From Candidatus Altimarinota bacterium (GTDB lineage Bacteria; Patescibacteriota; Gracilibacteria; BD1-5; UBA2023), in contig JAQTWP010000002.1 in the NCBI GenBank assembly GCA_028689205.1, positions 203,718-267,717 on the forward strand: DNA of 64,000 bases, in the 5' to 3' direction. A model generated the notes under the pieces. The model was not told where the DNA came from and ran no database searches. It saw only the letters and a program-made list of their open reading frames with translations. Shown here piece by piece: positions 20,628-45,828 of the stretch (the stretch's first letter is position 1; each line of letters begins with the position of its first letter). Made by a program: the position numbers and the translations under genes.

Positions 20628-20628
20628 A

Positions 20629-21576: not shown

Positions 21577-22846
21577 TATTATTAATTGGATTTAGAATAT
21601 TAAATCAGTAACTTCTAATGAAATTAATATGGATTCATTCACATTTATCATTATATTTACATTCAGCACATCTCAAAGATTTTTTCCTATAAAGATCATT
21701 TATATATTTTTCAGTGTAATCTTCTATAGATTTCTCTTCCATAATATCATTATATGTCTCATAAATTCAAGTTCACCCTAGGCATTTTGGTAAATTAAGA
21801 ATTGGCTTATCTATATTCTTAAGAAAACCGATAAAATCCTCCTTATTTTTTCCGTATTTTTCATAGACATTACTAGGAAATTCTTCTCATTTTAATATGA
21901 AATATTTCTGCTTATCATCAATTATTTTCTTTTTTTGATTATCTATAAAATCATTGCAATATTGCTTTAAAAAACATGAGTCACAAGCCGCAGGAAAACA
22001 TTCTTGTTTTTCATTTCAATTAGATAGAATAAATGGCTCGAAATGATGTCTTCATTCTCACATAACCTCAGATTTTATTTTTCTTGGGTCTTGAATAAGA
22101 TCTTCGAAATTTTCAAAAGCTTCTGCAGGAAATCTATTTGTCCACATATACATTCACTTAATTTTTGATAGCTTCCAAGTCTCAGATAATTTATTACTAT
22201 AATCTTCCAACTTATAAAAAAGCTTTTGCCTATTTTCATGAAATCATCTACCAAAAGGTATTATTTGCAAAATATCAAATTCGTATATTCCGAGTTTCAT
22301 ATAAAATTTTACAATATCTGGCAGATAATTTATATTTATCTTATTAACAACTATATCTATATTTATAATGATATTTGGAAAATGTTTTTTAATATACAAA
22401 AGTCATTTAAGTGACTTTTTAAATGTTCCTGGAGTTCCCACAAGATAGTCATGGAGTGTTTCATTATGTCAGTGCATTGAAAATGTAACTTCCTCTAGTC
22501 AGGCATTAAATACTTTTTTACAAAAGTCTTCAGAAGCAAACATTATTCAATTAGTGATGGTTTGGACTCTATTGTATCAAACCTCTTTAGCATAGCTGAT
22601 ATAATCTGAAAATTTTGGATTTATGGAAGCTTCTCATCAAGAAATAATTACTCTGTTATTAAAACCTTCCTTAAATCAATCTTTTATATTTTTTTTAATT
22701 TCTTCTTCATCTGAAAAAGTTCAATCATGAGCATTTGAATCAAGACAAAAAATACAATTATTATTACAAACTGAAGCTATTCTAACCCATATTCGATTTT
22801 GTTTTTGGGTTTTTTCTTTAGATAGCAGATTAGAATTATTTGGCAT
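21569..22846 (-). CDS. Radical SAM protein 12, two C-terminal Cys clusters
   Basis: 425 residues, longer than its neighbours. VCNNNCIFC at 27/31/34; ISGGEASINPKFS in the GGE position; TFSMHGHNETLHDYLVGTPG. Two separate Cys groups follow: CFPAACDSCFLKQYC and, after an inserted 90 residues, CAECKYNDKCEG, so two auxiliary iron-sulfur sites are possible. Its start lies within the 3' end of the preceding ORF (stop 22836-22838). Confidence 0.8.
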
Positions 22847-23315
22847 TATTATTTAAAATTGAGATAAAAGTCTTTTCCAACTTAGAAACTAATACAATAT
22901 TTTTGATTATAATTGATTTTAGGTTTAAATCCAAATTATCCAACATTAAAATAATATTTTTATTAGTTCTAATTTTCAAATTTATTCAGATATTTCCCAT
23001 TTTTTGATAATATTTCTCATCAGGAAAAATCATTGTTATATGTAAAGTACAATAGATATTGAATTCTTCATTGTATAATGTTATCTTAATTTCTCTGTTT
23101 AGACTTATTGAGATTTCAAATAAAGCAAATCATAATATCATTTTTGATATATGTCCAAATAAATAATTTTCTAGATTCTGAATTTTATCAGTTAGTCAGT
23201 TTCTTTTTTTAGGAAATTGCAATCAGCTTATACAACTGGATTCTGGACATATTATTTTTTTATTTGAAGATAATATATTTTGCAGATCCTCTATTTTATA
23301 TCTGATACGATCCAA
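22836..23315 (-). CDS. Unknown protein, about 159 aa, uncertain (TTG?) start
   Basis: Frame open from 23363 to stop TAA 22836-22838. After the upstream in-frame TAA (23364-23366) no ATG or GTG precedes the conserved-looking part; the best start is TTG 23313-23315, which overlaps the end of the upstream radical SAM gene by 20 bases. Sequence includes CPESSCISGLQFPKKRNG (two Cys) and mixed hydrophobic strands. Not recognised. Its stop overlaps the next start exactly as other pairs in this operon do, which argues it is real. Confidence 0.4.
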
Positions 23316-24171
23316 AGTATAACATGGTCATAAAATAACTTCTCAATTTGCTGATATATATGCTTATATTATTTTTGGAAATAAAATGACATTCATATCA
23401 TTTATAAATGTTTAATTTTTTAGATTTTAAATCTTCAAAAGTATATTTTTTAGATTTTCAGTTTTGATACTTAATCTCGGTGCTTTTGTTATTTGTTTTT
23501 TTATGACCACGGTCGATATCTGCATTCACTTTATTATAATACATAAGTATTCCTCTATCATAAGTTTTTGAAATCTCTCAATCAGCATCGATAATTAGAT
23601 AATTATCATACTTATCATTATCTATTCAAGTCTTTTCTAATATGTAATTTTTAATCTTCAGAAAATTATCTAACTTCTCTCAGTTATCTGGCAATAAGAA
23701 TTTAATTTTAAAATTTAAATCATTACTCAATAAGTAATTGATTGATTTGATAAACAAGTCCATTTTATCTTTATATTCAAAATAATGGAAAGATATATTA
23801 AAAAATATGTTATCTTTAAATTCTATAGTACTAAGATCTAGAACTGATAATAATAATCAATTTGTTGATACTTGAAGTTTAATATTATTCATACCTGAAA
23901 AGATTTTTAATATATTTATAAAATCTTTATGCAAAGTAGGCTCTCATCAGTTAATGTCAATATTTATAGTATCATTTCAAATGACTAATCTTAATTTATT
24001 TACAGAATCTATTAATGTATTTATTTTATCAAGCGATAACTCATCTTTTGAAAATTCTCTGCCAGCAATACAATAATTACATTTAAAATTACAAGTATTA
24101 TTAAGGTGCACTATAAAAGATATAGATTTCTCTATTGGGATTAATTCTTGTATTATATCATTTTTATACAT
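23296..24171 (-). CDS. Radical SAM protein 11 of the cluster
   Basis: 291 residues. NNTCNFKCNYC at 27/31/34, DINGGEPTLHKDF, QVSTNG. No clear C-terminal Cys cluster beyond GYECHFISKNN, so possibly only the SAM cluster. Overlaps neighbours at both ends (start within the kinase-like gene's stop region; 3' end overlaps the unknown 159-aa ORF). Confidence 0.8.
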
Positions 24172-24901: not shown

Positions 24902-25720
24902 TTAATAAAACTTATCATAAATAAAATCGTCAAATTCCGTATCCGAAAAAGTGTGCGGAATTATTTTATTATTGTTTTTTAGCATCAAATTAGATAGCTC
25001 CTTATATTTAATTAAATCTGGATGATTTTCATCAAACTCAAAAAGCGTCATATTCTTTTTTTCAGCTTGTAATATTCATTCCGATCTATTCATAACTCAA
25101 ACAATCTTACTTCAAAGTTTAGCGGTGAAATCTTCTACCACTTTTTTATCACTATCATTACTTCTCAGATTTAATATAATTCATGATAATCAAATTCAAT
25201 TCTTCTGATAATTCACTATAGCTTTTGCAATATTATTTGCTGCATATAAACTCATTATCTCTTCTGACAATACAATATAGACCTCATCTGCAAATCAGAT
25301 TTTAAGTGGCGAAGCAAATCAGCCACATACAACATCTCAAAGTACATCAAATATAACTATATCATAATTAGAATCATCCAATAATCCTATATCCTCAAAA
25401 ATTTCAAACATTAAAGAAATTCATCTTCATGCGCATCATAATCAAGCAATAGGTCATCAAGCTTCTATGCAGTCAATTCAAAATCTTCATTTATGAACAA
25501 TAAGCTCTTTTGTAAAATCATAAATATCTCTATCTTTAGATAAATCTATTACAGTTGGTATATTTTTTACTCATTGTAGTATCCTTTTACAGGAATCATG
25601 TTTTGGATCACATCAAACTTGAAGCACTCTCAATCATTTTTTTGCAAATGCTACTGAAAGATGAGTAGATGTTGTAGATTTACCTATTCATCATTTTCAG
25701 TATATTACTATTTTTTTCAT
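24902..25720 (-). CDS. Nitrogenase iron protein (NifH/BchL)-like ATPase
   Basis: 272 residues. KKIVIYGKGGIGKSTTSTHL is the NifH-type deviant P-loop (residues 8-16); VGCDPKHDS is the switch/Walker A' segment; EAGGPIAGLGCAGRGI has Cys96; DVLGDVVCGGFASP has Cys132. Cys96 and Cys132 correspond to the two residues per subunit that hold the intersubunit [4Fe-4S] cluster in NifH/BchL (Cys97 and Cys132 in NifH), and the GCAGRG and GDVVCGGF motifs separate this family from ParA/MinD. Length and order fit NifH/BchL/BchX. It would donate electrons with ATP hydrolysis to a component-1 partner, which is encoded by the two genes upstream. Confidence 0.9.
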
Positions 25721-25749
25721 ATTTTAATTAAAAAAGAACTATAATTTTC

Positions 25750-26949
25750 CTAAATTTTGTTTGGATTACTAATTTCATTATAAAGTCTTTCTATAAAATT
25801 CAAAATTCAAACAAATCAAAAATAAGATTTATTTGTAAGAAAATGTGAATTATATGATGGGAATCAAAATTCAAATTTTAGTCACGAGTAGTTAAAATCA
25901 GAATTTCATATAACTAAATCTATTTTTTCTTTTTCTAAATTCCTGTCAAAACTTACATCTTTTGTTCAGGTATAAGAATATGTTTTTATATGATTCATTC
26001 ATAAAAAATTTCATATATCAATTATTCATTTTTCAAGAAATGGATCTCAAGCATATATATAATTTTTATCTAAAAATATTTTATCATCTAAGTTTATAGT
26101 TTGTGTTTTTATATTATTTAGTTCTTTTTTGATAGTATTTTGTATAAATTCTTTATCAATTCCTAATTTATCTCAAATTTTTTCCAAAAATTTTATAGTA
26201 GAATCTATTCAAAAAGGAATATCTAAAAATATTTCATCAATTCAAAGTCTTTTTGATAATATTTTTGCAGCTTGTTCTCAATATGAAAAAGAAACTATAA
26301 GCTCTGAGTTTTCAATTTTTTTTAAATTAGAATATTCTCATCAATCAAGCCAGATAGAATCAATAGTCACTCATATTAGAGATAAAAGCCTTTTTATTTC
26401 CTCTAAATTTCACTTACAGTCTCATTCATTTCTATCATATAAAAATCAAACTATTGAAATATGTTTTTTTTGTTTTTCTTTTTTATCTAAATATATTTTT
26501 TTTGCTATTTCTTTGAGCAAAGCTGCATATCAATCGATCCGAAATTTATCTGTTTTAGATGGAACGAAAACAAAATCTTTTTTAAAATCTGAATATATAT
26601 TATCGTATTGTATAGCCAATAATCATGTTACAGGCATACAAGTAATGACTCCCAAATTAAAATTATCATTCTCATCTATAAAAGATAATTTTCTTTTTAT
26701 TTTATCATCATATCATCTCACCATTTTATTTGGCATAACTCATGAAAAATATAGCTTTGAATCTATACTAGGAGATTTTAAATTAGAATTTATATCATGT
26801 GTTTTATATATCATATCTGCTTTATAAAAAACACAATCTGGTCAATCTACATACAGGGCGGCATCTTTAATAGAATTCACTCACATCATAACTCAAGTCA
26901 AAAATGGACTTCCATATATCTGAGAATATTTTTCAATTATATCTGACAT
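25750..26949 (-). CDS. Nitrogenase component-1-like protein (NifK/BchB-like), 399 aa
   Basis: 399 residues. GVMMGVNSIKDA and VDGPDCVFY (Cys39) match the first cluster-Cys region; NLGVITCMPVTGLLAIQYDN (Cys104) matches the TTCxxEIIGDD region in degenerate form. Then FVFVPSKTDKFRIDGYAALL, HISIVGFLYDRNEGD, EIKRLLSLIGVTIDSIWLDG, SYGEQAAKILSKRLGIDEIF, DIPFGIDSTIKFLEKIG and a last LVIGNSDFNYSGLKFEFGFP; GFVGILNFIERLYNE: all in the order of the three Rossmann-like domains of NifD/NifK/BchN/BchB. Cofactor ligands equivalent to NifD Cys275/His442 not evident. Adjacent to the NifH-like gene. Confidence 0.8.
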
Positions 26950-26951
26950 AT

Positions 26952-28604
26952 TTAATTATTTAGAAAATATTTAGAATTATATTTCTGTTTTTCACACTTT
27001 TTGATTATTTTAGATAAAGTTCTGTAAAATCAATCAATTCAATATTCGAAATCTCATACAGAAAACTGTTCTTTATTTTTTTCTAATATTCTTTTATCAT
27101 TTGCAATTTCAGAATAATAAGATTGTATATTTATATCGGACAAAAATATATTTAAATCTTCTTTTCTAGAAGAAATTATTGTATTGAAATTATTTTTATT
27201 ATCTAAATCATTTTTACTATTGAATTCATCAATATCTTTTTTATATTTATCAGAATAAGAATATATAAAAAAATGTAAATGAAATCACATATCTCTAAAA
27301 AGAGATAATATTGGAACTCATCTAAAATTATCTAACAAAAATTGTCTTATATGAAAATCATGAATAATAAATCACAGATTAAGATTTCTAGCTTTATTGT
27401 GAAGAATAATATTATCTTCTTTAATTTTATTTATAATTTCTGATAATTTTTCTAAATATTCCTCCTTTCAAAATTTCTGTAATATATTCTGAATTAGTTC
27501 TTCAAATTTTGTTATTCAATAAGGAATTTTAAAATCAAATTGATTTATTGGATAAAGTTTAAATAAATTCTGAGCTTTTACTTCTCTTCAAGAAAAAAAT
27601 ACCGCTAAATTATAATTTAATATATTAAATAAATCCTCTTTATTAATATTTGGAAGTAAAACATTTCAAACTTCAAGTCAAAAATTATTTTGTAAAAATT
27701 GTATTATTTCAAAAGTATTTTTATTTTTATTTAATCAAAAAAATAATATCTTGTTATTTTTTTGATTAAACTCACTTAAATTAATAGTTTTTAAATAATT
27801 AATTATAGTTCTATAAGGGCTATCTATATTTTGATCAGTATATAAATATTTTTCTTCTGGGATATTATTATATTTAAATATTGACCCTAAATCATCTCAC
27901 ATTATAACAGATATACATGTTTTATTCAAAGAAATCATATCATGTTTATCTATCAGTTTTTTATCGGATAATATTTCATTTATTTTTTCATTTCATCAAA
28001 TAGTTATTGATTCATAATCATTAACATTTGTATACAAAAACTCTGATTTAGTTTTTTTAAATTCAGATATAAAATATTTTTTATCTATAATATCATCAAA
28101 GTTTTGAAAAGATGTAAAAGCTTCTCTTGGTCAAGAACATTTAGAACATTCAAAATCACTATGATATATATCAAGTATAGATTTATCTTCTAATTTAAAT
28201 TCATTTTGAATTTTTCTTCTATAAGAATAATCATCTAAAAAACTAAAATCTAATTTATTTTTAATATCTATAAATTTTAATTCTTCTTTATCAAAAATAT
28301 TTATAAATTCTGATTCATCTCATAGATTAAATAAATTTATTCTCTTAAATTTCAAAAATGATAAAAATAAATTTTCATATTTTTTTATAAGCAATTCTAA
28401 TTTAACTCAAATTGTTGATTTTTCTCAAGAATATTTTTGAATAGTAATATTATCAGCCTTAAGTAATATTCAAAACAAGCAAAAATCTTTTCCATCTGAA
28501 ATACTTATAAAAAACTCATTATAAAGATACTCTGTTTTTATAACTGAGTCTCGGAAGTTTATATAAAAAATTTTATTTATTGCTTTTAATATATTTTGCT
28601 GCAT
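26952..28604 (-). CDS. Nitrogenase component-1-like protein (NifD/BchN-like), 550 aa
   Basis: 550 residues. An unrecognised N-terminal 140 residues precede FECSKCSGPREAFTSFQNF (Cys153, Cys156; the CxxCGPxxAxxG-like region) and LNKTCISVIMGDDLGSIFK (Cys230), which is the TTCxxExIGDDL motif of NifD/NifE/BchN. Later KILFFGLNKNKNTFEIIQFL and FGLEVGNVLLPNINKEDLF fit domain 2, and NLGFIIHDFHIRQFLLDNFR, GVPILSLFRDMGFHLHFFIY fit domain 3. Three Cys here plus two in the partner could hold an interface Fe-S cluster, as in DPOR. Ends 2 bases before the partner's start. Second subunit of the predicted heteromer. Confidence 0.75.
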
Positions 28605-29269: not shown

Positions 29270-30307
29270 TTAATTTAAAAATTTAGCTATTTTATCTCTT
29301 ACATTTTCCTCTCAAATAAACTCTATCCAATTCTTATAAAATCACAAACAATAATTATTGTATATACACTTATTACATTCTTCAAGTTTGTGTTTCTCTT
29401 TCCATAAAAATTCATAAGATTCTAAATTTGATTTGTTTATATTTCAATCTATCTTATTTTGTTCTAATTTTTTTAATCTTTCATATTCCAAATTATACTC
29501 AGGATAATTTATAATACAAAGTGGTGGACAAACAAAGTGAAAATCTGGTAATATATTATTATCTTTACATAAATTAACAATTCTATCAACTTCTATAATT
29601 TCAGATTCCGTATATTTTAATAAAACTTCTTCTTTATTTAACTCAGCATATCAATTTGGTTGAACAAATCAAAAAGATATTTTATGGGTAATTTTTCAAT
29701 CATCCATAAACCTATCTGCTATAACATTAATAAATCCAATTCTTAATAAAAGTAAAATATAATCATAAATATGAAAAATATTTATTTTTGTAACAACAAT
29801 ATTGAGATAAATTGAAATTTTTTTATGTATATTATTTTCCAATATGAATTTGGTCCATTCTAAAAAATCTTCTATTTTATAAAAAATTCATAGCTCTTTA
29901 TTTATATTCTCGTCTCAAGAGTGTTGAGCTAAAAATATTTCATTTAGTCAAGCTTCTATTAAATCTAGAATGTATTTTTTTTTATTAAATAATCTGGTTC
30001 AATTGGTTTGAATTTCTACAACTCACACTCATATTTTTTTAGCAAGTTTTATATATCCAAATAATTTATTATCCAAAGTTGGTTCTCCTCAAGAAAAAGA
30101 TAAAATAAGATTTTCCCTTTGTTTTAGAGTATATTTTCTAGTTAGATTTAATATTTGATATATTATTTCTTTTTTACTAACATCATATTCTCAAAAATTA
30201 TTTGTTTTTAAAACATTACAAAATTTACAAGACCAATTACACTTATAAGTAACTCTAATTATTTCATTTATATATATTTTTTCGGCATTTCAGTCTTTTG
30301 TAGTCAT
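29270..30307 (-). CDS. Radical SAM protein 10 (SPASM-like)
   Basis: 345 residues. TYKCNWSCKFC at 23/27/30, SFSGGEPTLDNKLFGY, VEIQTNGTRLF. C-terminal PEC-like region: CPPLC and later ECNKCIYNNYCLG with auxiliary-cluster spacing. Its stop lies 7 bases before the methyltransferase start. Confidence 0.85.
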
Positions 30308-30313
30308 AGCAAT

Positions 30314-31252
30314 TTATTTTATAAAATTAATTTCGTCAAGTCAATAAAGCTCATTATATATTTTAGATGGTCACCAGCAATTACTCACATATTTACATCA
30401 TTTGCATTTATAACAATGACTCCTCTCTCTAGGTAGGCTATCAACATCTTTCAAATCTCATCTATCTAATTCCTCTCAAGTATGTATTATTTTTAATCTA
30501 GTTTCAAAATCATAATCATCTGTTAATTTTAAATATTCTCAGATATTATCTAAAGGAAAAACACAAAATGGAAAATCCGGTAGTTTCAAATTTATATTAT
30601 GATATTTGCATAATTTAATTATCGGTAAAATCTTTTGCATACATTCAGTATATTTTGGTGCAATCTTATTTAAGGTATGTTCTTTTCAATAATACTCCAT
30701 TTCTATATCAGGATATGTTACTGAAATATTTTTAACTCATTTTTTATTTAAAAATTCAACTATTTCAAAAATTTTATTTTTATTATCTTGGGTAATGACA
30801 ATGTTTGTCTTTAAAAAAGATCATTTCCAATATTTTTCTATATTTTCAAATACCACATCCCAATTAACATAATTTGTTGTTCTTGAAATAATTTGTTGTT
30901 CTTTTATGGAAATTGCCTGTACCGATAAAAGTAATTCATCTATATATTGCAAAGTATCCTTAGATTGATTATCAATATGTAAAGTAGTACAATTAGTGGC
31001 AACAAGAATTGTATATCAAAGTTTCTTTCATATTTTTAAGGCATCTAAAAAAACTTTTTGTATAAAAGGTTCTCCTCATAGATAAGTAACATGATTATAT
31101 CAAAGTTTTTTATATTTAATGAGTGTTTTTAAAATGTCATATTTACTAACCTTTTTATGCCATACTTCTTCCATATTTCTATATTCCATGCAATATGTAC
31201 ATCTTTGATTACAAGTCCATCAAACATATATTTCTAATCTCTTAAAAGTCAT
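30314..31252 (-). CDS. Radical SAM protein 9 (SPASM-like)
   Basis: 312 residues. GWTCNQRCTYC at 14/18/21, TYLGGEPFIQKVFLD, VATNCTTLH, C-terminal CYKCKGCKYVSNCWGP rich in Cys (auxiliary clusters). Most similar to the radical SAM gene at 37696 in its N-terminal motif. Its start is overlapped by the stop of the upstream gene (31242-31244). Confidence 0.85.
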
Positions 31253-32141
31253 TTCAATTATTATTTAGGTATACTGAAAAATAATCCATAATTTCATGCA
31301 ATTCTTTTTGTCATTCACTTTTATTATACACAAAATTTTCTAAAACCTTAATGATTTTCTTATATTTTCAAAAATCTAAATTAATAAAATCATTTAAATT
31401 TGATTCAGCTATATCTCATATAAATAAATGCCTTTTGTAGGGGTTTCACAAATATGTAGAAACTATATCACTATAGTATATTTTTGAATCAGTATCAATA
31501 AAGAAACTCTCATTTATAAGAGAAGAAACATAACCTTCATTTTGTTGAAATCAATAATAATCTAGATTAAAGTTTAAAATATTTTTTATATTCTCAGATA
31601 AAGCTAAAAGATTTTTTTTATTCCATTCTTTTGTATAATAAACTGGAAGTATATTATATTTATTTATTCAATATTCTTTTAAAATAGTAAATTGTTCAAG
31701 ACTGTTATTCTCTTCTCATGGATTAATCACTATGTTAAAATAAAGCTTATGATTTAATGAAAATTGATTTATAAAATTTATGACTTTTTCATAATTAAAA
31801 TCGTTTTCAGTATCTATACTAAAAAATATAGTTTCAAAATATTTGCTAAAATATTCTCAAATTTCATCATTTAAGATTTTAGCATTAGTAACTATTACAA
31901 ATTTGTTTCATATTTCATCTTTTGTATTTTCAATAATATGTTTTATATCATCAAATACTAATATTGGCTCTCATCCAAAAAATTTAACAGTGTTTATATA
32001 TTGACTATTAAATTTTAGAAAATTAACAATATCTTCGATATTTTGTTTTGAAAAAACTGAATTATCTTTTATAACATTGCAATATGAACAATTATAATTA
32101 CATCTTCTAGTCATATTAATGATTATATCTTTTTTTATCAT
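31242..32141 (-). CDS. Radical SAM protein 8 (no clear auxiliary cluster)
   Basis: 299 residues. TRRCNYNCSYC at 14/18/21, KFFGGEPILVFDDIKHII, VIVTNAKIL. No C-terminal Cys motif visible. Clearly paralogous to the gene at 39512-40399 (same length, same FFGGEP(I/L)LxFDxxK block), implying duplication inside the operon. Confidence 0.8.
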
Positions 32142-32962
32142 TTTTTATGGAATTTACAATTATCTTTAATAAAACACGAATAACATCTATTTTCTCTTAA
32201 ACAGAAAGGCTTAATATCTTTTAGTCTTAAAATATCCTCTTCATATATTTGTTCTAGAATTCATTTATCAAAATTATAAAATAATTTATATTTATCAAAA
32301 AAATCTTTACTGAATTTTGTGAACCTAGCATTTAATTTTAAGTGAATTATCATTATAAATAATTTATTTATAAAAATTCTACTTTCAACATAAGAATATT
32401 CGAGTATTTTTTTATAATCATCATAAGGCCTATCAAAAGGGAAATAATTTACGAATTCAAAATTATTTACAAGATATTTTTTATTTAAAACATAAACATC
32501 ATTGAAAAGAGTCTCTATATTTTGTTTATTAACATGAATTATAGCTTTATAAAATATTCAACTTTTTTTAATTATTTGTATATTTTCTAATAATTGATCT
32601 AAATTAATTCATCAATTTACAATTAATTCATGATTATTCTTGTTAAAAGTATTAAAATAAAATCAAATGCCTTTTAGTCATAAATTAATCAATTCGCTTA
32701 AATAAGACTCAGTTAATCAATAAGTATTAGTCAAAATTCATATATTTTCATATCAAATTGATTTACAAAATATTATTATTTCAGGTAAATCAGGATGCAG
32801 TAAGGGATTTCATCAATAAAAAGTAATATTATCTTTAGTTTTATCTTCTAAAATCATCAAAAAAATTTCTTCTTTATTGATATACTTCGGCTTATCTCTA
32901 TAAGATTGTTCTAAACAATAGCAGCAGTTATTATTACATGTATTTACAATTCTTAAATCCAT
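32135..32962 (-). CDS. Radical SAM protein 7 with altered GGE motif
   Basis: 275 residues. NTCNNNCCYC at 9/13/16; the GGE motif is replaced by FYGGNPLLHPDLPEI (Glu to Asn); ILTNTYGLT. C-terminal CLRENRCYSCFIKDNCK carries four Cys. ATGATAA-type junction with the next gene. Radical SAM fold likely retained; the loss of the GGE glutamate is noteworthy but occurs in some families. Confidence 0.75.
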
Positions 32963-32964
32963 AA

Positions 32965-34332
32965 TTAAAAGGTAATTTTATTATTAATATCTCATAATGA
33001 ATCAAAAGAATTATAACTTCAATTGATCATATTGGCAACCATTCTACTTCATCATCTGCAATCTTCTTTATATTTACAATCTGAACATTCTTCAGGTAAG
33101 AATCAATTATTTAGCATTTTTTGAATAAAATCTCATTGCCAAATATCTAAAATATTGTTTTCAAATATATTTCATACATTCGAATCAAATGCTGACATAA
33201 TTTGTATATTTCATTCAGTTCAGATTATAGTTTTTACATTATGATTAACAGAAAGCTCTCAATCTATAATTTTACTTGCAATATCTATGTCTTTTGTGAC
33301 ACAAAAAGGGACAGAATCAACTATTTTAAAATCTACATCATATTCCTTATTTAATTTAAAAATCTTATGAATTGCCAAATTAATCATAGGTCTAGAAATT
33401 CAATTACAATTAGCAGTAGAATATAATCTGAAAAAATGCCAATTCTCAAGATTAAAATTTTTAAGTACAAATTCATAAATCTTTTCAAGATTAATAATAT
33501 TCTTATTTGTAAGTATAGTTAAAAAATCTAGAGTTAAATTTTCATAATTATTTATAGATTTAAGCATTTTGAATTTGTTTTCAAATTTATTCTCAAATGA
33601 TTTAGCCTCCTCTAATCAATGTATGCTGATAGCGCCTTTTTGATTTATTTCAAAATAATCTTTATTATTGAATTCATGTAAAGAAACCATTAAATTTAAG
33701 CTAAATCAGTCATTTAATTTCTTTAAAATATTTTCAAATAATAAAGTTCAATTGGTATTTATTCTAATAAATATTCACTTTTGTTTTATATATTCTAATA
33801 ATTCAAATAAAAAACTTGAAGTTAATGGTTCTCATCAGGTAATAATAATATCTCTAGTTCAAGCACAATAGAGTTTATCAACTATTTTTTTATATTCATA
33901 TAGTGATAATGAATTTCTGAAATTCCTATTTTTTAAGGGGTAATCATATTCATTAAAACAATAATTGCAGAATAGATTACATTTACTTGTAATAGTAAGT
34001 ACAGTTCAAAAAGGTATATTATTATAAAATTCTTTTTCTTTGAAAAAATTAAAATCATTAATCTCATTTATTATTACCAAATCATAAACATGTCTTACTA
34101 AACCAATATCATCTCAGAATAATTGCCAATTTTTAGTTTTATATAAAAAATCTGTTTTTTTAAAATCATTGTGTACAAAAATTATAATTGTTTTTTTGGT
34201 TTTATTTCTGAATATAACTTTTATTTCTCAAAATTTATTTTCAGAAATTCCACAAATATTGTATCCTAATATTGATTTATTATAAGTAATATCTGGGAAT
34301 AGAACCAAAGAATAAAAAATTTTATTTATCAT
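32965..34332 (-). CDS. Radical SAM/SPASM protein 6 with N-terminal extension
   Basis: 455 residues. About 105 residues of N-terminal extension (ITYNKSILGYNICGISENKF, then INDFNFFKEKEFYNNIPFG), reminiscent of peptide-binding leaders in RiPP radical SAM maturases. TSKCNLFCNYC at 118/122/125, IITGGEPLTSSFLFEL, INTNGTLLF, and SPASM-type EECSDCKYKEDCRGGSRMVA near the C-terminus (CxxC...CRGG). Classical SPASM peptide maturase layout. Gap of 2 bases to the next gene downstream. Confidence 0.85.
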
Positions 34333-34694: not shown

Positions 34695-35678
34695 TTAAAA
34701 ATATTTATCACAATTAAAACAATTATCACAATCCCAAATACATTTTTTTATATCCTCAAAAAAATTAAACTTTGTTAATTTATCATTATCTATATAATTA
34801 ACAATATTTTCATGATGCCAAACACAACTAGGTATAATATCAAATAGATTTCAATGGTAATATCATTGTACATATGCTAATAACATTAATTCCACTTCTT
34901 TTATGGGATTATCTCTTGTAGTAAGTTTAAATACATCAGTCAATCATTCATAATAATGTAAATCTTCGGGTCTTACAAATGGAACTCTAAATACCATTCT
35001 TTTGTTTTCAGCCAACAAGGGAAGACACGAATATTTTTCAAGTAAATTATAATTTCATTTTGAATTATTCCTGACATTATTTTCAACTCAATGTGAAATA
35101 ATATTAAAATGAGTATTTCTGAAAGGACAATTTCTAAAACATCATTCATTTAATAATATTTGAATAGGTAATCATGTTCTTACTTTTATTTCTTTAATTA
35201 AGTCTAAATCTCTATTTATATCTCTATCAATAGTTAAAACATCAATTCATATTTTTTTCATATATAATGCTTGTTCAACAGTTTTCACATAACAATTTAC
35301 TGAAGAATATATTTTTAATTCAGGTATAGATTTTTTTATAAATTTTACATAAAGTAAATTAGTTAAAGATATTGAATTTAATCAAATTTTTCTTAATTTC
35401 TTTATATATGATATTAATTCTAATAGATGATATTTATCTCAAGTTTTCTCTCATTCACAAGTTGCATTTATAACCAAAATATTTTCTATTCAGGATTCCT
35501 TACATATTTTTATAAGATTGAATATTTTCTTTTCATAATAATTATCCTGTTCTAAATCTCTTCAAGAATTTCATAAACTTAAAGGCAATGCAAAATAAAC
35601 AGATTCAATGTTATCTTTGTATTTCATTAATAAATCTGAAAAATCGTTAGTCTGATTATATCAAATTGAAAATTTCAT
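34695..35678 (-). CDS. U32-like (UbiU/UbiV-type) Fe-S protein, copy 3
   Basis: 327 residues, TIM-barrel style: GIENILVINATCEGEK, GLNSISLTNLLYVKFIKKSI, PELKIYSSVNCYVKTVEQAL and GIDVLTIDRDINRDLDLIKE follow the U32 peptidase-family pattern, then LLNEGCFRNCPFRNTHFN gives a CxxxCP(F)xxxH metal-like motif and the tail CIWDCDNCFNCDKYF adds four Cys. In UbiU/UbiV-type members such Cys hold [4Fe-4S] and support hydroxylation or RNA/cofactor modification. First of three tandem paralogs (read 37664 to 34695). Confidence 0.65.
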
Positions 35679-35699
35679 ATTTATATATAGGTTAAATTT

Positions 35700-36674
35700 T
35701 TAAAAAAATTTATCACAGTTTGTACAAGTATCACAATCTTTTGGGCATTTAAGCATATCTTCAAAAAAGCCTAATTTTCATAATTTTTTGTTGTCAATAT
35801 ACTTAATTTTATTATTAGATATATCTGAAAATGCCACCTCCAATATATCTAATATATTTCAATCATAGTTCTCACTTATATAAATATTTAAAAGCTTATC
35901 AATAAAATGTGTTTCTCTATCTCTTGTAGATATTTTAAGGTAATCTACGAATTCATAATTTTTTAAATCCTCTGGCCTAATAAATGGTACTCTAAAAAAT
36001 TTTCTTCTATTGTATCTAAATATCTTTCAGCATGCTCATTTTTCCCATATTCTTCAATCTGGTTCACAAAAATGAGTAGCCAAATTAGCATGTTGTTTAT
36101 CAAAAGGGCACATTGACATACAAGAATTATTTATCAAAATTTTGATTTTCAGTTTTGATTTTTCTTTTATTTTTCTGATTAAAGAAACATTATAATTTAT
36201 ATTTGAATCTATTGTTAAAATATCAACTCATATATTTTTTAATATTAAAGATTCTTCAACTGATTCAACTCAAAAAGCATTTAATGAATTACAAATAATT
36301 ATATTTGGAAATTCATATTTAAATCTATTTACAATAGATAAATCTGTTAATGTTACCGTGGTTAATCAATAGCTATATAAAGGTTTTACTAATTTTATAA
36401 TTTTATCAATAAAATCTTTATTTCAAGTATTCTCTCAATCACAGACAGAATTTAATAATAAATCTGTTTCTATTCAATAAGATTTACAAATTATTATTAA
36501 TTTAATTACTTTATCATAATATTCTTTTAATGTCTTTGTCCTTTCTGTTATTGATCTTCATGATCAAGTTATATGATGAAACATAGGAAAATATATAGTT
36601 GATATATTATTCCTATATTTTTTGACTAGTTCAAAAAAATCATTTTCTTCATTATATCAAATAGAAAATTTCAT
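35700..36674 (-). CDS. U32-like Fe-S protein, copy 2
   Basis: 324 residues, about half identical by eye to the copies on each side. Barrel motifs GIETDLLLNSVCDGENTGN, GLTTVTLTDLSIVNRFKYEF, NAFGVESVEESL; central LINNSCMSMCPFDKQHANLA; tail CPKDCDTCTNCDKFF. Cys positions conserved among all three copies: the CxxxCPF pair and the CxxxCxxCxxC tail. Likely result of tandem duplication with conserved function. Confidence 0.65.
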
Positions 36675-36695
36675 ATATATTTATTTAATTCTAAA

Positions 36696-37664
36696 TTAAA
36701 AATATTTATCACATTTAGTGCAAGTATCACAATCTTTTGGACATTTAAGCATGTCTTCAAAAAAGCCTAATTTTCATAATTTTTTATTATCTATATACTT
36801 AATAGATGTTACTTCTGAAAAATCAAATTCTAATAAATCCAATAAATTACCTTCAAAATCTTGTTTTATATAAATACTTAAAAGCTTATCAATATAATCA
36901 GTATTATTATCTCTTGTATTTAATTTTAGATAATCAATAAAATCATAATTTTTTAAATCCTCTGGTCTAATAAACGGAACTCTAAAAAATTTTCTTCTAT
37001 TTTTATTATATATCTGTCAACAAGTAGACTTAATCCATTCATTTGACTCTGGCTCTACTAAATGAGCCAACATATTTGCATGTTGTCTATCAAAAGGACA
37101 GTTTGAGATACATGATTCATTAATAAGTATCTTCATTTTTAATTTAGTTTTTTCTTTTATACTTTTTAAAAGTTTTAAATCATAATTAATACTTGGATCT
37201 ACTATTAGTATATTAACTCATAAATTCTTCAAATCTATTGCCTCTTCTAATTTCCTTATTCATCATAAATTTAAAGAATTAGCTATATTTAATCAAGGAA
37301 ATTCATTTTTTATTAAATCAATATACCATAAATTTGTTAATGTGATAGTAGTAAGTCAACACCTTTGTAACGGTTTAATATGATTAATAATATTTTTCCG
37401 ATATAAATCATTACATGTATTAATGCCATCACATGCAGAATTTAATATTAAATCCGTTTCTATTCAATATTTTTTACATAAACATATTAGTGTCATAACT
37501 TTATTATAGTATTCTCTTATAGTCTTAGTTCTATCAAGTATTGTTCTTCCTGAATAAGCAACTTTATAAAACATTGGGAAATATATTGTTGAAATATTAT
37601 CCTTATACTTGTTTACCAAAGAAAGAAAATCTAATTCCTCATTGTATCAAATAGAAAATTTCAT
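36696..37664 (-). CDS. U32-like Fe-S protein, copy 1
   Basis: 322 residues. GIETDLILNSACDGINTC, GLTTITLTNLWYIDLIKNEF, ILINESCISNCPFDRQHAN, tail CPKDCDTCTKCDKYF. Nearly the same as copy 2; all begin MKFSIGYN. Probably binds Fe-S clusters and an as yet unknown substrate together with its paralogs. Gap of about 20 bases to each neighbour. Confidence 0.65.
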
Positions 37665-37695: not shown

Positions 37696-38628
37696 TTAAA
37701 TTAATATTTTTCAATTATCCCTATCTTCAGGGCTCATTTTATTTACCATGCATCAGTACTGACATGTTTTACCATAATAATTACAGTCTTTACATATATT
37801 CGGAATAGTTTGTCTGAGATTCTTTATATAAGGGGCAAATTTTTTAATATATTCGGGAATATTATTGTCTAGTAAATAACTTATGCTTGTCGTAAATGGT
37901 AAAGCTCAGCAAGGTAATATTGTTTCTCAATCAGGATTTATTATCGTTTCGGTTTCACCTTGAGGTAAAGGAGTATCGCACATACCAGATAAAAATGTAT
38001 TATATTTTAAATATATAAACTGTTCTTGTGAGAACATACAAATTGGATGTGGTCATGCTGATATAACTCTGATGCCTTTTTCTTCTTTTAGGTATCTAGC
38101 TAATTCATAATAATAATTTCAAATATCTTTGGAAGGTTTTTGATCATAAATAAACTCCAGTAAGGTAGTTAATTTAAATTTAGATAATACTCTTTTTACT
38201 AATTCTAAATCATACTTTCAAATATCGTGAACATTATATGTTAAAGTTACTCTAGAATTCCTTCGATAAAAATCTATATTTCTTATAATATCGGCATTTT
38301 TAGTAAAAAATAATACATTTGTATGTATCGATACTTTGTCTGGTATTTCTGTTAATCTCTTTATGGCATTGGTATCTATGTTGGTTATAAGACCTATTTC
38401 CTTAGCAAACTTTATTGCTTCATTTATATATTTCCATAAAGTAGACTCTCATCATATAAATGAGATATTTTTAGTTCCGTTAGCTTTTAATTTCAGGGCT
38501 ATTTCTTTAAATCTTTCAAATGATAATTCTATTCATTTATACACATTTTTATATTTTCTCGCATAACAGTAAGTACAATTTGCATTGCATTCATATGTTC
38601 ATACAAAAGCGACTTCATTGAAGTTCAT
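37696..38628 (-). CDS. Radical SAM/SPASM protein 5
   Basis: 310 residues. TYECNANCTYC at 14/18/21, SFIGGESTLWKYINEAI (GGE kept), NIDTNAIKRL. C-terminal MCDTPLPQGETETIINPDGE then LPCGALPF and CKDCNYYGKTCQYGCMVNKM: a full SPASM domain with the hydrophobic INPDG strand and Cys array. A convincing peptide-type maturase. Gap of 11 bases to the next gene upstream. Confidence 0.88.
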
Positions 38629-38639
38629 GATATTTAATT

Positions 38640-39518
38640 TTATATATTAATATTAGTCCTATAATTATAATAACTGCAATTAATACAACTATTATAAGAT
38701 AATTTAGAAATAAAAAGATTATTATTTAATTTATTTACATTTCACAGAAAGAAATTTTTATCAAACCTTTTTAATCAACATTTATAAATATCTCAATTGT
38801 AATCAAAAAATAAATATTTTCAAATAAAAGCCTCACATCTTTCTCAACCAAATCTCTTATTTATAAACTTATTCAAGATATCAAAATTAAAAATTTGTCT
38901 ATATTCACTATCCATTAATAATCATCCCCAATTATGAGGAATAGAATAAATAAATTCTTTTCAGAATAACTTAGAAAAGTTTTTATAAATATTAACATTA
39001 CCAATGTTAATATTGTTTAATAAGAATTCAAATGAAAAATTTATTCATTTTTTATGACTATATTTTATTAAATTCAATAAAGAATCAAGATCCCCTCATC
39101 AAGTAATATCATGATATGTATTTTTATTCAATGAAAAAATAGAAAATGTTAATCCAATATTAAAATTTTTAAGTTTATATTCAAGTATTTTATCAATATC
39201 ATAATTCTTTACAGATTGTCACTTAGTCATTATATATATTTTTATTTTTGGTATATGTTTAAATATATGATCAATAAATTTATATAAATCTTTATGCAAG
39301 AATACATCTCATAATCAAGATAATACTATTTCAGTATATCACTTATTTTTTATAATTTCTACTATGGATTTCAGTATATCGAAAGTTAAAAATCAGAAAT
39401 ATTTACATTCTTTTCTGATACATCAAATACAATTAAGTCAACAATGATTTGTTAATTCTATTTCACATCAATTAACAACAGCACTACATTCAAATTTTTG
39501 TATATCATTTTCTATCAT
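38640..39518 (-). CDS. Radical SAM/SPASM-like protein 4 with altered GGE region
   Basis: 292 residues. Start MIENDIQKFECSAVVNGCEI; LTNHCGLNCIGC at 26/30/33 (CxxxCxxC); SGLGDVFLHKDLYKFI replaces GGEP; barrel KIYIMTKGQS. C-terminal RCEAFIGKYLFFDYNGDIYK then CGLKRF, and CINCSYYNYR: the FFDYNGDIYKCG strand is SPASM-like. Overlaps the upstream gene's TAG stop by a few bases. Confidence 0.75.
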
Positions 39519-40399
39519 CAATTTAATATATTATCTATAATACTATTTTCTGACAAAACACCTTGACTTTTTGGAATTAGAAAAATTAGCTTCAGTAAAT
39601 CTTCTATATTATAAAGTTTGAGTAATTTTTCTAAATCAATCTCTTTATCAAGAAGTGAAAACAATGTCGTTTTTTTATTAATTTCTTCTTTTAATGCCAG
39701 ATTAATATTTTTATATTGTTTCTGTAACCAGAGCAATGAATCTAAATCAGAGTAAAAATATAAATCTGTATCAAGTATAAATTGTTTATCTATAGAAACT
39801 CAATTAAAATATTTAAAAAAAATTATATTCATATCATCTGAGTTAGATTTTATGTATTTATAAATATTTCACAGCTTATACAAGCTACTAGTGGACCACT
39901 TCTTTGTTGAAAACACTGGCATAAATGAGATATTTTTAAATCAATGCATTTTTATATCTTCAAAAACCTGTATGGAATTATCTAAATAGTCAGGATCATT
40001 TATAAAATTTATTTTTATATCATTTTTATAATGAGATAAAAAAGATAGATCGATATCTGCTCATTTTTTTACATTATCTACAGAAAGATATATGCTGACT
40101 TTGTTTTTAATCAAATATAAAATTTTTGTTTTGTTTAATAAAATTCAATTAGTTCAAATAGAATATTTATTTACATATGATTTTGAATTTTCTAGAAAGT
40201 ATTTTAATTTATCAAATTCAAGCAATGGTTCTCAACCAAAAAAATTAATTGTATAGTTAGCTTTATTATTCTTTAAAAATTCTATGAACTTATCAAGATT
40301 AGAATAAGAAAATGATTTATGACTAAAATCAAGATCACAGTATTGACACCTCTTGTTACATCAATTCGTTATTATTAATTCTATATATATATTATGCAT
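39512..40399 (-). CDS. Radical SAM protein 3, paralog of the gene at 31242
   Basis: 295 residues ending ILNGG under UGA=Gly, with the real stop TAG at 39512-39514. TNGCNKRCQYC at 14/18/21, NFFGGEPLLEFDKLKYFL, SIGTNGILL. No C-terminal Cys cluster. Under the standard code this gene would end at the first of two consecutive UGA codons, which is one of the clean local examples that UGA is sense here. Stop overlaps the downstream start. Confidence 0.8.
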
Positions 40400-40420: not shown

Positions 40421-41269
40421 TTATTTATTAAAATCATTAACCATATAATCAAAAAATCAATTACACTCTTTATTAGTATAAAAATAAAGATAAACCATTC
40501 AAATTAAATGATTTTCATTTATTTCATTTTTATCATCAAACTTTTTAAAAATTGATTCAAATATTTCTTTTTTATCATCAAACTTTTTTCAGTTTAAAAT
40601 TAAAATTAAAGAATATTTTTCAAGAGAATAAGCTAAATTAGCACTATTTATTCACATCAAAGAAATTACTTCCCTATATGAACTGGTATTAGCAATTTTT
40701 AAATGGAGTTCTGAAAAATTATTAGAAAAAAGATTATTTAATTCAGCTTTCAAATTATTTAGTTCTTGTCATGTAATACCACTATATTCTGATCATAGTA
40801 TATATTCATCTTTTAAACTAAAGCTACTTGAATTTTCTAAAATTTTTCATCAGTCATAATAGTTTTTACCTCAAGTTATAATATTGCACCTTCATTTTAA
40901 AAACATAATAGCATCCATATTTATTGATAAGTTATTAAATTCTCTAGTTATTTTAGTTAAATCTGATTTTTTTAAATTATATTTTTCTAAATATTCAGTT
41001 TCTAAATTAGATAAATACCTCTTTTCTAATTTAATATTATCGATTTCAGCTAAATCAAATTTCTTTTTTTCTAATTCAATAATCTTTTCTTTCGAAAAAA
41101 AAGATTGTTTATTTTTTTGTAGGGATGAATTTTTAATATTTTTCTCATTTTCTTGTATATTTTTCTCATTTTCTTGTATATTTTTCTCATTTTCTTGTAT
41201 ATTTTTTGATGAAAAAAATGAACAAGATGTCAAAAATATAAGAAATATAATGCTAAATAATTTTTTCAT
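40421..41269 (-). CDS. Lipoprotein with NIQENEK heptad repeats
   Basis: 282 residues. MKKLFSIIFLIFLTSCSFFS is a lipoprotein signal with lipobox LTSC (Cys16 lipidated). Next come three exact heptads NIQENEK (about residues 23-44), giving a coiled-coil stalk, then a helical domain rich in Lys/Glu/Asn. Possibly presents or anchors product at the membrane surface. The only clearly exported protein in the operon. Stop TAA 40421. Confidence 0.75.
41140..41204. repeat. Three 21-bp tandem repeats inside the lipoprotein gene
   Basis: Period-21 repeat TTTCTCATTTTCTTGTATAT present three times on the + strand; encodes the three identical NIQENEK heptads on the reverse strand. Identity at DNA level points to recent expansion. 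Confidence 0.8.
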
Positions 41270-42074
41270 AGTTAAATTTTTTTATTATGTATATAAAATT
41301 ATTGTAATAATCTTCTATATAATTTCTATTCTTCTCTTTAATATCTGATATAATAAGATTCATGATATCATCAACTATGATTCTTTTTATATTTTTATAG
41401 TAAACTTCTCATTTACTATTAATGCAAAATATTTGTCATTTTCATTCTTCATATCTAAAAATAACTTTCTCTCAATTAATTAAGAACAACTCAATTATAT
41501 ATTCTATATTTTTTATATTCCTGTCTATGAATTTATAATTTATATTTATTTTATTTTCAGGTAATCATAAGAGATTGTTCAGTACATAATGTGTATCAAC
41601 AATGAGTGATTCTTTTTTATATTTTTGTTTCAATAAATTATCCTTATTTTGTAAAATCAAACATTTCGCATAATGTATTTTATCAAGGTTATTCTTAACA
41701 AAAAAATTAAAAAAATCTAATTTGGATTCCATTAACATAAGAAAAAGTCTTTCATTACTTAAATATTTATTTAATAAATAAGAATTAAATGTTAGTGGCA
41801 AATCTGATAATATATCATAGTTGTAATTTTCAGAATATTCAAATAATTCTTCATATATATCAATTGGATATACCGACAAAACAAGTAAATCAATATTATT
41901 ATCCAGTACGTTTTTATAATTTGTAACAACATTTATTCAGAATTCTCTTTCAATATTTTCTTTTGTTTCAATCGTTCTACATACTCATACGACTTCATAA
42001 TTATTTTTCAAAAAATATTTTAAATATTGTCTTCCTTGAAATCATAATCAAAAAATACAAATTTTTTTATTCAT
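41253..42074 (-). CDS. Gfo/Idh/MocA-like NAD(P)-binding oxidoreductase
   Basis: 273 residues. MNKKICIFGLGFQGRQYLKY is a Rossmann GxGxxG nucleotide site; VVGVCRTIETKENIEREFGI and DLLVLSVYPIDIYEELFEYS follow the Gfo/Idh/MocA N-terminal pattern. The C-terminal domain is less conserved. In RiPP and NRPS clusters such enzymes reduce azolines or imines; here the substrate is unknown. Its stop overlaps the lipoprotein start by 17 bases and its start overlaps the upstream radical SAM stop. Confidence 0.65.
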
Positions 42075-43002
42075 ATATCGGTTTTAAAGTAAAATTCTCA
42101 TAAACGTCCTTATAATCCTTAGTAATGCCTTTGCAAATATTATTCAACTTACAATCAGCACATTCATCTAGTTTTGTTTTATTAAAATCATCCAGGAACT
42201 CATCGTATTTTTCATTAACAGTTATAGAATCTCTTATTATAAATATTCTATCTAAAATATTTTTCCAATATTTTCTATTAATTAAACAAAAGGGAATATT
42301 TTCTATAACAATTTTTTTATTATAATAATTTCAAAGTATTAAAGATTTTATAATATATGGAATAACTACTTGATATTCTGGAATAATTTCTTTTTTTTCT
42401 TTGATACTAAAATTTCATAACGAATAAGCAATTACCAATTGTAACCTTGTAAAATTAAATTTTGATAAAAAAGCAATTATACTAGTTAAACTTTGGTAAT
42501 TAAAAGTACATACTACAGTATTTATATCAAAAATAAAATTATTATTAATTTTCTTAAGTGCTTCAAAATTTATAAGAGCTTTTTTAATTATATCAAAACT
42601 TCATAATTTTCATGTAATATTATCATGAATGTTATTATATCAATGAATAGATATTGTAACTCAACTCAATCATTTATTATATAAATCTTTAAGGTAATCA
42701 AAATTTATAAATCAAAATCAATTTGTATGAACTCTTATATGTATAAATCAAAGTTTTTTAGAATATTCTATATAATAAGATAAATTAATATCCAAAGTTG
42801 GCTCTCATCAAGAAAATATAATAAATCTTTTTCAATTATTATATCAGTCTTCAAGCAATTTTATAATTTCTTTTTTCTCTATATTTTTTGTATATTCTTT
42901 TCTTAAATTTTTTTGATAGCAAAAAAAACATTTTAAATTACATGTATATCACAAAAAAATCTCTAATCACTTTAAATTTTTTATATCTTCTTGTATAAGC
43001 AT
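42067..43002 (-). CDS. Radical SAM protein 2, next to the precursor (HxsC-position)
   Basis: 311 residues. GYTCNLKCFFC at 21/25/28, IFSGGEPTLDINLSYY, VHTNGFGFINF, TISIHGYNNIHDNITGKLGS, C-terminal DECADCKLNNICKG. In position it is immediately downstream of hxsA, where hxsC would sit, but similarity to HxsC specifically is not obvious, so I do not assign the name. Gap to hxsA stop is 13 bases. Confidence 0.85.
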
Positions 43003-43015
43003 AATTTTTAATTTT

Positions 43016-43453
43016 TTACCATCTACTACCGTGAGAACCGTGAGAACCGTGAGAACCGTGAGAACTATGTCATAATGTAGCATTACCCGCTAGTGTTGAC
43101 GCTCAGCTAAAATGTCAATTAACTATTCAACTTGCATGAGTTGGTACAATAGTTCATTTTACTCCGCAAAGTCATAAGTTTGGTAATGAAGAAGTTTCTG
43201 ATGTTCATGCTCAATCATCAGTTATATCATCTGGAGTGGGTGAGTATATTGGGTCGGCAAGATTAGCAGCCGTACAAGTATTTCAGTGTGGTGATGCAAA
43301 AATTTCATTAATTCATCCCAATAATAAACCTCAAGCAGCTAAGCCTAATGCATCTTTTTTACTTATTTTACCACTTTCATCTGTAAGAAATCATTTGATT
43401 TTCTTACTTAATTTTGGAAAAAATTTCTTTTTTTCTAGAGACATAAAAGACAT
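43016..43453 (-). CDS. hxsA: His-Xaa-Ser repeat precursor peptide (HxsA-like)
   Basis: 145 residues. Leader MSFMSLEKKKFFPKLSKKIK, then GKISKKDALGLAAGGLLLGG, a Gly-rich hydrophobic segment, then a Gly/Ser/Thr-rich region and a C-terminal core: H106-A-S, H114-F-S, then HSSHGSHGSHGSHGS (129-143) and RW. Seven His-Xaa-Ser units in total, the hallmark of HxsA, the ribosomally made substrate of HxsB/HxsC radical SAM enzymes. All four Gly of the HGS repeats are GGT, while elsewhere UGA dominates. Two in-frame ATG (43453 or 43444); the first is used here. Flanked by hxsB upstream and a radical SAM gene downstream. Confidence 0.88.
43029..43064. repeat. Four 9-bp repeats coding HGS units
   Basis: Perfect tandem CCGTGAGAA on the + strand (TTCTCACGG on the reverse), four units, encoding the repeated Ser-His-Gly. 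Expansion or contraction by slippage would change core length in 3-residue steps. Confidence 0.85.
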
Positions 43454-43505: not shown

Positions 43506-44999
43506 TTATTTACATATAGTGATATCATCTTTTCAAAGCCATTTGTTAAATAAATTCAAGTTTTCAGTATTTCTTAGTTTATCAAAAAGGTAATTAAGTA
43601 TAATATTTTCTAGTTTATTTCTATTGTCTTTTGAATAATTAGAATATATATTTCATAATATTTTATAATTATATATAGGACATATTCATATATAAGGCTT
43701 GTAAACACTTTCATTATATCAAGGTAATCAATCAATTGTAGAAGATTGTACCATTGTTTTCGTTAATTCTGAATTAATTATATTTTCATATACTTCCTCT
43801 GGATTCTCTGAAACTTCTCAAGCTAAAAAATCATTAATTCACATTCTAGACATCATCCTTCATTCATCACACGTGTAAACATTTCAATCATAATTATATG
43901 CCAATTGACCTATACATGCTCAACAAGGACTTCTTTCGTCTAGATAATTAGGATCTTTTTGGTTAAGGATTTTAGCTAAATATATAGATGATAATTGTTC
44001 TCTAAAATTAACTCATCTACTATTTAGATCTAAAATATAATCCAGAGAATTCCTATAGAATTCTCAAAATTCTTCTGGAGAATACGAAAGTTTATTTAAA
44101 TCAGATTGAGCAAATCAATATGGATTAAGAGATCTTAAGAAAATTCAGTCTAATCAAAGAGCAATATAAGTATCAATTATTTCTTTATATTTTGGAAGAG
44201 CATTTTTTGTAACAGTAAGCAGTGCTCATATTTTATTAAATTCTCAAACCGTATTTTTTATTCATCTTTTTTCATATTCTTCATTAATTTTTCTTATCCA
44301 ATAAGTAACTTTTTCAAATGAATTTCAATTTTTGAAAATTCTATTTTCATTATGGAGTAATTCGTCTCAATCAAGTGAAGTGCTTATATTTATTCCATTA
44401 TTTATAATATAGTCTAATTTTTCCTCATCCATTAATGTTAAATTTGTAACCAAGGCGAACCTAATATTTTTTGCAAGGTGTAAAGCTTTGATTTTTCATT
44501 CCTCAACTACATATTTAAATACATCCCAATTAAGCAAAGGTTCTCATCATTGGAATTCAATAATTATATCTTCAGATGATGTATAAAATATTGTATCTAA
44601 TACTTTTTTTGCGGTTTCTAGTGTCATATCTAATCATTTTGCTTCCTTATTACCTGCTGAAGCGTGACAATAAAGACATTTATGATTACATCTGATAGTT
44701 GTTACTAAAATATGAAGAGATGGTCAATAAGCTAGAAAATGATTTTTTGTAGCATATTTAATAGCCATTTCATTGGTATATTTTTCATTTTTTATAAATC
44801 ATTTACTTTCTAGATCAGTGAATTTATCTCAAGAATTAATTTTTCATGAAATGAAATCTCAAAATTCTTGAGAAGTTAAAAAAGAATATTCTCAAATATC
44901 ATTGGTGATAAGATAATTATCTTTATCGAATTTTTTAAATCTGAAAAATCAGATTTTATCACTTTTTAGTTTTTTAATTTTATTTAAATCAAGTGTCAT
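43506..44999 (-). CDS. hxsB: His-Xaa-Ser system radical SAM maturase HxsB
   Basis: 497 residues. N-terminal FFRFKKFDKDNYLITNDIGE and YSFLTSQEFGDFISGKINSG is the HxsB-specific leader-binding region; GPSLHILVTTIRCNHKCLYC gives Cys104/108/111; IIIEFQGGEPLLNWDVFKYV; FALVTNLTLMDEEKLDYII; ISTSLDGDELLHNENRIF; the C-terminal SPCGACIGQLAYNYDGNVYT then CDEGRMMSRMG is the SPASM domain. Length and all motifs match HxsB, which is taken to modify the HxS repeat of HxsA. 52 bases upstream of hxsA. Best-assigned member of the cluster. Confidence 0.93.
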
Positions 45000-45080: not shown

Positions 45081-45290
45081 TTAAATTGTTTCGTTTTGAA
45101 TTCACAAAGTATAATTCATTAATTCGTTGAAAATCTCTTCAATTTCTTCTGTAGAATTTCAGAATATAGTTAAAACAGATTTTGAATATTTAATATCAAA
45201 TCACTCAAAGTCTTTAATAGCTATTTTTAACATAGCTTCGTCATATATACTATTCTCAAGCTTGAAATCTTTTTTTTGCATCTTTGACAT
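45081..45290 (-). CDS. hxsD: HxsD-like small protein (short)
   Basis: 69 residues (start ATG 45288-45290; an internal ATG at 45281 would give 66). FKLENSIYDEAMLKIAIKDF and EEIEEIFNELMNYTLGIQNE follow the HxsD plan: IYSxEAxxxA... then FxNELxDxxxR. Shorter than typical HxsD. Overlaps the end of the upstream HxsD-like gene by about 40 bases. Probably a partner for HxsB or for the leader. There is a second HxsD-like gene next to it, which is unusual. Confidence 0.6.
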
Positions 45291-45828
45291 TTTTAGGATC
45301 TAATGTAATTTCTTTTTGGCTCAATTTCTTTATTTCTGTTTCACTTTCTTCTTCAATTTCTTTAAGTATTCTTTCTATTTCTGCTTCGTCAATTTTCAAG
45401 TCAGGATCATTCTCAATTTCTCTTAGAATTTCTTCAATATCTTTATCAAAATCTATTTGATTATTATTTTGGATCTGATTATTCGTATCAAGAGAAACAA
45501 AATTCTTTGTATCTATAGAATTTCATAATGCAGCTACAACTATAGCTTCTCTTATAACTTTGTTATCTTTTTCTAAAATATCTCTTAAATATGTATTTAA
45601 CAGCTCATCATAATAGTTTCCGATTATATTTTCCACTTTTTCTTCTACTGAATCTTTTCTACTAAACTGTAATATAATATTTTTATTTTCATCAAACTTA
45701 AAGAAAAAATATCATTTATCAAGAAAATTATATGCAGCTTTTAATATAATTTCTTTTGGAAAAATTTCACAATCGATAAGTAATTCGAACTTATCTCAAG
45801 TAATTTCCTTTTTTAAAAATTCTGTCAT
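45250..45828 (-). CDS. hxsD: HxsD-like protein with acidic C-terminal extension
   Basis: 192 residues. First 105: FELLIDCEIFPKEIILKAAY, NFLDKGYFFFKFDENKNIIL, YYDELLNTYLRDILEKDNKV, REAIVVAALGNSI match HxsD (His-Xaa-Ser system protein): IFPxExIxKAAYxFxD...NELLxxxLRxxI...REAI. The remaining 85 residues are an acidic linker ending in QKEITLDPKNVKDAKKRFQA. First gene of the operon, whose start follows the recG stop by 62 bases. Ends in TAG inside the next gene. Confidence 0.75.

Follow-up and report, generated by a model that had tools for sequence, protein, structure and literature searches.

The window, by which we mean the whole 64,000-nucleotide stretch of Candidatus Altimarinota DNA that was analysed, was found to carry a gene system that we read, with a probability of roughly 0.6, as follows: it would encode a divergent HXS modified-peptide precursor, whose HxS units are modified, whose peptide is exported and whose gene cassette is swapped between fixed ends. 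The open reading frame at 43016-43453 on the minus strand gave 145 aa under translation table 25 and was open only when TGA was read as Gly (12 TGA). Judging by the homologues, whose sequences start with MS.. or ME.. at about codon four, M4 (43444), three codons inside the frame that opens at 43453, is the probable start, yielding an HxsA-like precursor of 142 aa (43016..43444). It contained HAS, HFS, HSS and four HGS units and ended in SRW, and the count of seven HxS units in the sequence-only reading was thus exact. The window HxsA scored 31 bits against the HxsA3 model NF038309 (cut-off 65), and this model matched the leader part in 28 of 28 homologues. The same reading had proposed an HxsA-like precursor, and this was borne out by the conserved leader and HxS tail and by the adjoining hxsB and hxsD; the C-terminal tail, on whose retention in close relatives the proposal had been staked, was kept in nearly all of them. 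Repeated His-Xaa-Ser units at the C-terminus are a feature of HxsA and HxsA3, and the H-x-S units also fit the Omega-x-x motif of triceptide precursors, in which the first residue is aromatic or His.

The HxsA profile was built from 28 homologues and detected HxsA in 44 of the 77 genomes of the order; the same 28 sequences were used for conservation. P10, F19, E23, S24, G25 and an NGH motif were invariant or nearly so, and four parts could be distinguished. The first is a basic start with FPKL, and the second, F-L-T-D-E-S-G-K-I-S-K-K-D-A-L, is almost invariant. The third is a stretch of moderate hydrophobicity; most sequences have V/A/I-x-A after it, a site for which the test was permissive, and the stretch may serve as an export signal. 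The fourth, the mature part, is made up of a variable core, the motif HASGIVNGHYSGTP and an (HGS)n tail ending mostly in W or Y. In the window, the leader (43295..43444, minus strand) comprised the basic FPKL part, the motif FLTDESGKISKKDAL, the hydrophobic stretch ALGLAAGGLLLGG and an I-x-A site, an arrangement that would resemble an export signal. The conserved mature-part motif HASGIVNGHFSGAS lay at 43097..43138 on the same strand (NGH nearly invariant, 28 sequences), and the tail HSS-HGS-HGS-HGS-HGS-RW at 43019..43069, also minus, included a perfect 9-bp tandem array at 43028-43065. By eye, variable-core types were common to different lineages (G047/G051; G000/G005/G010; G020/G035), which suggests that HxsA cores move between lineages. 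Loss of most HxS units, or of all of them, was seen in a few homologues (G013, G049 and one G029 copy), which means that some of them can do without the motif. The named HxsA matches were Gracilibacteria MAGs. Distant matches adjoined HxsB in Parcubacteria, Azambacteria and Elusimicrobia, and a planctomycete match adjoined a radical SAM gene; these other-phylum matches also showed the order of F-L-x-x-E-E-G-K-I leader, hydrophobic stretch and HxS tail.

The homology search returned one HxsA copy in the genome of the window, and a DNA pattern search for three HxS in a row gave no convincing second HxS-tailed peptide there. The remaining pattern matches lacked the HxsA leader, and one that was read fully was antisense to an unrelated gene. 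Two sets of matches were rejected by name: those on contig C8 were antisense to a gene whose product ends in a GEKG-type tail, and those at C15:64.7 kb were CATTCCACC repeats that, by eye only, looked antisense to a Gly-Gly-Met tail. Thus, the precursor, which had been called the only candidate peptide in the operon, was the sole peptide of HxS type that the homology and pattern searches detected in this genome. Among the relatives, one genome (G074) carried two HxsA copies on one contig (L132:650-1042 and L132:7358-7759) and a third beside its hxsB, and G029 had a copy whose tail consisted of Gly-Ser/Thr repeats, not HxS; L131:12371-12817 is also among the copies of these genomes.

The hxsA gene lay directly downstream of hxsB, an hxsD-like gene and hxsD, all on the minus strand. 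HxsB (43506..44999) is a radical SAM maturase that scored 488 bits against TIGR03978 (cut-off 370) and carried auxiliary-cluster-type Cys at 359, 362, 377, 440 and 496. HxsD (45250..45828) scored 56 bits against TIGR03976 (cut-off 50), and the HxsD-like HxsD2 (45081..45290) scored 29 bits against NF038315 (cut-off 41) and belonged to a family found in 20 of 23 loci. Across the 77 genomes, HxsA and HxsB were both present in 42 and both absent from 30 (Fisher 1e-15). In one HxsB clade (L034, L036, L044, L054, L056 and L062; 6/23 loci), all five auxiliary-cluster-type Cys were lost together; the clade had a single origin (support 100/99), and its HGS tails were mostly kept. This retention argues against one obligatory mechanism and suggests that the mechanism acting on HxS may not be the same in all clades or may rely on partners, and the clade offers a natural test of the need for the auxiliary cluster. 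The structure prediction of HxsD gave a bbabba fold with pLDDT above 90 over about residues 11-90, and a fold search returned only weak matches to RPB11-type dimerisation domains (best E 0.008). On the basis of this model and these matches, the assignment of HxsD as a PqqD-like winged-helix recognition domain was not supported. The HxsC-like radical SAM genes scored 65 and 108 bits against TIGR03977 (cut-off 267.9), and by these scores the locus contains relatives of HxsC, not the equivalog.

Downstream of hxsA, the cassette continued on the minus strand. Its first gene was an HxsC4/HxsC-like radical SAM gene (42067..43002; 86 and 65 bits, below the cut-offs), whose true start is probably 43002; its frame is open back into the HGS repeats (43002-43083), reading TVLTVLTVV, and the same was seen in some relatives. 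It was followed by a Rossmann-fold oxidoreductase (41253..42074; PF03807 26 bits, cut-off 21.6) and a lipoprotein with an LTSC lipobox (40421..41269). In most loci, as in other phyla, hxsA was followed by a gene for a lipoprotein or membrane-anchored protein about 210-350 aa long, in many cases with several Cys. Further along lay three radical SAM genes within 37696..40399 (39512-40399, 38640-39521 and 37696-38628; PF04055 over cut-off), three tandem U32-type proteins (34695..37664), five radical SAM genes (29270..34332), a nitrogenase-like trio at 24902..28604 (NifH-like 24902-25720, NifD-like 25750-26949 and NifK/NifE-like 26952-28604), and a radical SAM-type gene with a CxxxCxxC motif (23296..24171). 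For the U32-type proteins, PF01136 gave 29 bits at 34695-35678 and the other two clustered with this one; the three U32-type genes are an apparent local triplication, and one of the two scanned passed Pfam detection. The right end of the island (19728..22846) held three radical SAM genes, of which 21569-22846 and 20629-21576 (HxsC-like) form the recurrent end pair, so that the window contained 13 radical SAM genes besides hxsB. Beyond it lay a convergent, HXS-linked long A24 (type IV prepilin-type) peptidase on the plus strand (18401..19738; PF01478 27.5 bits, cut-off 26.5). A large protein with a Sec-type signal and no Pfam match (16501-18366) was encoded beside the A24 gene, and its relatives occupied the same place in most other loci.

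The comparison of 23 loci indicated that this island has fixed ends. The left end read hxsD-hxsD2-hxsB-hxsA, and the right end usually consisted of two HxsC-like radical SAM genes (14/23 loci) and then the convergent long A24 peptidase. In the loci with both ends located, the stretch downstream of hxsB comprised 8-32 genes, counting hxsA, and 1-17 of them were radical SAM genes by the CxxxCxxC motif. In genomes G062 and G056, HxsB was 89% and the leader 85% identical, and the genes flanking the island were of the same kinds at either end; even so, only 1 of 41 cassette families was common to both. In the equally close pair G035 and G044, 17 of 28 were. As judged from this likeness of HxsB and flanks beside unlike contents, the cassette can be exchanged as a whole between the fixed ends.

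From these results, we propose the following course of events. HxsD/HxsD2 and HxsB would engage the FLTDESGKISKK leader, and HxsB, with its HxsC-like partners, would modify the HxS units at His or Ser. The modification would most likely join the His imidazole with the Ser beta-carbon in a cross-link that spans three residues. We favour such His-Ser links by analogy, since radical SAM enzymes form links of this kind in i, i+2 motifs: HaaB and YhhB make C2(His)-Cbeta links, and MscB makes C4(Phe)-Cbeta(Ser) links (PMC11002830). The cassette enzymes would add further lineage-specific changes. The hydrophobic stretch before the V/A/I-x-A site would direct Sec export, the leader would be removed, and the mature peptide would act outside the cell. 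The swapping of cassettes between fixed ends would fit diversifying selection on a product that is secreted or lies on the surface. A more far-reaching version, which we offer as speculation, is that a streamlined bacterium of 1.25 Mb spends about 25 kb on one exported peptide. The exchangeable fixed-end island, which holds a nitrogenase-like reductase and, in relatives, as many as 17 radical SAM proteins, would then let close relatives decorate the same HxS scaffold entirely differently, a capsule-locus-like diversification on a ribosomal peptide. Should the nitrogenase-like trio act on the peptide, this enzyme class would have a new use. The order offers dozens of natural versions with a constant leader and HxsB and with different cassettes and cores, so that the chemistry and role of HxsA are open to direct testing.

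The first alternative to be weighed is that HxsB and the HxsC-like end genes alone modify HxsA, and that the variable cassette makes another thing, such as a small molecule or a surface modification, and shares the locus only. In the 17 loci that remained after leaving out five with an unplaced right end and G140, cassette content and the HxsA core did not vary together (partial Mantel -0.15, p 0.86), in keeping with such a separation, and the number of radical SAM genes was not correlated with the number of HxS units (Spearman 0.14, p 0.59). The cassettes also carry nitrogenase-like, U32 and oxidoreductase genes, for which we know of no precedent in peptide tailoring. Against a separate cassette, one locus after another has the cassette enclosed by hxsA on one side and the HxsC-like/A24 end on the other, with most of its genes sharing the strand of hxsA, and the NifH-like gene, found in 9 of the 77 genomes, was confined to HxsA-positive ones (9/9). 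We regard this alternative as less probable than the main reading. The suggestion of the sequence-only reading that the peptide is the substrate of a large set of enzymes was upheld as to the HxsA-like precursor; its link to the whole set found no support in the covariation across the 17 loci, which did not refute it either.

A second alternative assigns the His-rich tail to the binding of a metal or cofactor, with enzymes that build or insert a metal centre and with HxS modification as a secondary matter. Up to 36 His occur per HxsA protein, and in the cassette a radical SAM protein closest to NirJ2/AhbD stands alongside nitrogenase-like proteins, all of which would suit a metal centre. The strict H-x-S spacing, in which Ser is conserved alongside His, does not suit it, and no metal transporter was recognised among the proteins scanned. 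We consider this explanation unlikely.

The linked peptidase raises a third alternative, namely that HxsA is a pilin-like substrate of the A24 enzyme and becomes part of a fibre. Of the 35 genomes with the long A24 peptidase (about 445 aa), 34 were HxsA-positive (Fisher 9e-12, a value that overstates independence because the genomes are related), a linkage that also counts in favour of the main reading. No HXS genes were found near A24 in HxsA-negative genomes (five neighbourhoods of 15-18 kb and one of 5 kb). Several genomes carried a second, canonical A24 elsewhere, which suggests that the long form may be dedicated to the HXS system. Type IV prepilins have an F(+1)-x-x-x-E(+5) spacing, and HxsA has the same. 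However, residue -1 was G in only 18 of 31 sequences of the order (otherwise N, S, A or D), no hydrophobic run directly followed F, and in other phyla, where the same F-L-x-x-E is found, position -1 is V, K, T, R, A or E. HxsA was thus rejected as a type IV prepilin, and we consider a fibre role very improbable. Tat export of HxsA was also rejected, since TatC was absent from the genome and the motif has KK, not RR.

Lastly, the perfect 9-bp array of the window could be taken for a slippage-prone DNA repeat without function, an idea that is next to untenable because the HGS tail is kept across the order and is written with different codons in different lineages. The relatives used CATGGAAGT, CATGGTTCA, CACGGTTCT or CACTGAAGT (TGA-Gly), with different Ser, His and Gly codons, and this codon usage indicates that the tail is under selection as protein.

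Several known systems come close to the locus in the window. Triceptide or three-residue cyclophane systems (XncB, OscB, MscB, HaaB and YhhB) resemble it in the aromatic-x-x unit, here His-x-Ser, and in having, next to the precursor, a radical SAM enzyme that carries auxiliary-cluster-type Cys. Unlike their maturases, HxsB forms its own family, scoring 59 bits against the YhhB model (cut-off 445) and also far below the cut-off of the DynA model. The Mucilaginibacter lappiensis cluster likewise has radical SAM genes beside an HxS-motif peptide, but these enzymes were stated to be unrelated to HxsB and HxsC (PMC9062424). The closest likeness is to the HXS system (HxsA TIGR03979, HxsA3 NF038309, HxsB TIGR03978, HxsC TIGR03977 and HxsD TIGR03976), for which no product or chemistry was found in the literature searched. 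The window shares with it HxsB and HxsD over their cut-offs, the HxsA leader, the HxS tail and the HxsC-like radical SAM partners. It differs in that its HxsA falls below the HxsA model cut-offs, its HxsC relatives fall far below theirs, and this order adds an HxsD-like protein, an island with up to 17 radical SAM genes, the nitrogenase-like trio, the U32 proteins and the linked A24. In summary, HXS systems are an already named kind, of which the window system is a divergent member, and the fixed-end exchangeable island, the nitrogenase-like trio, the long A24 peptidase and the second HxsD are features outside the named HXS models.
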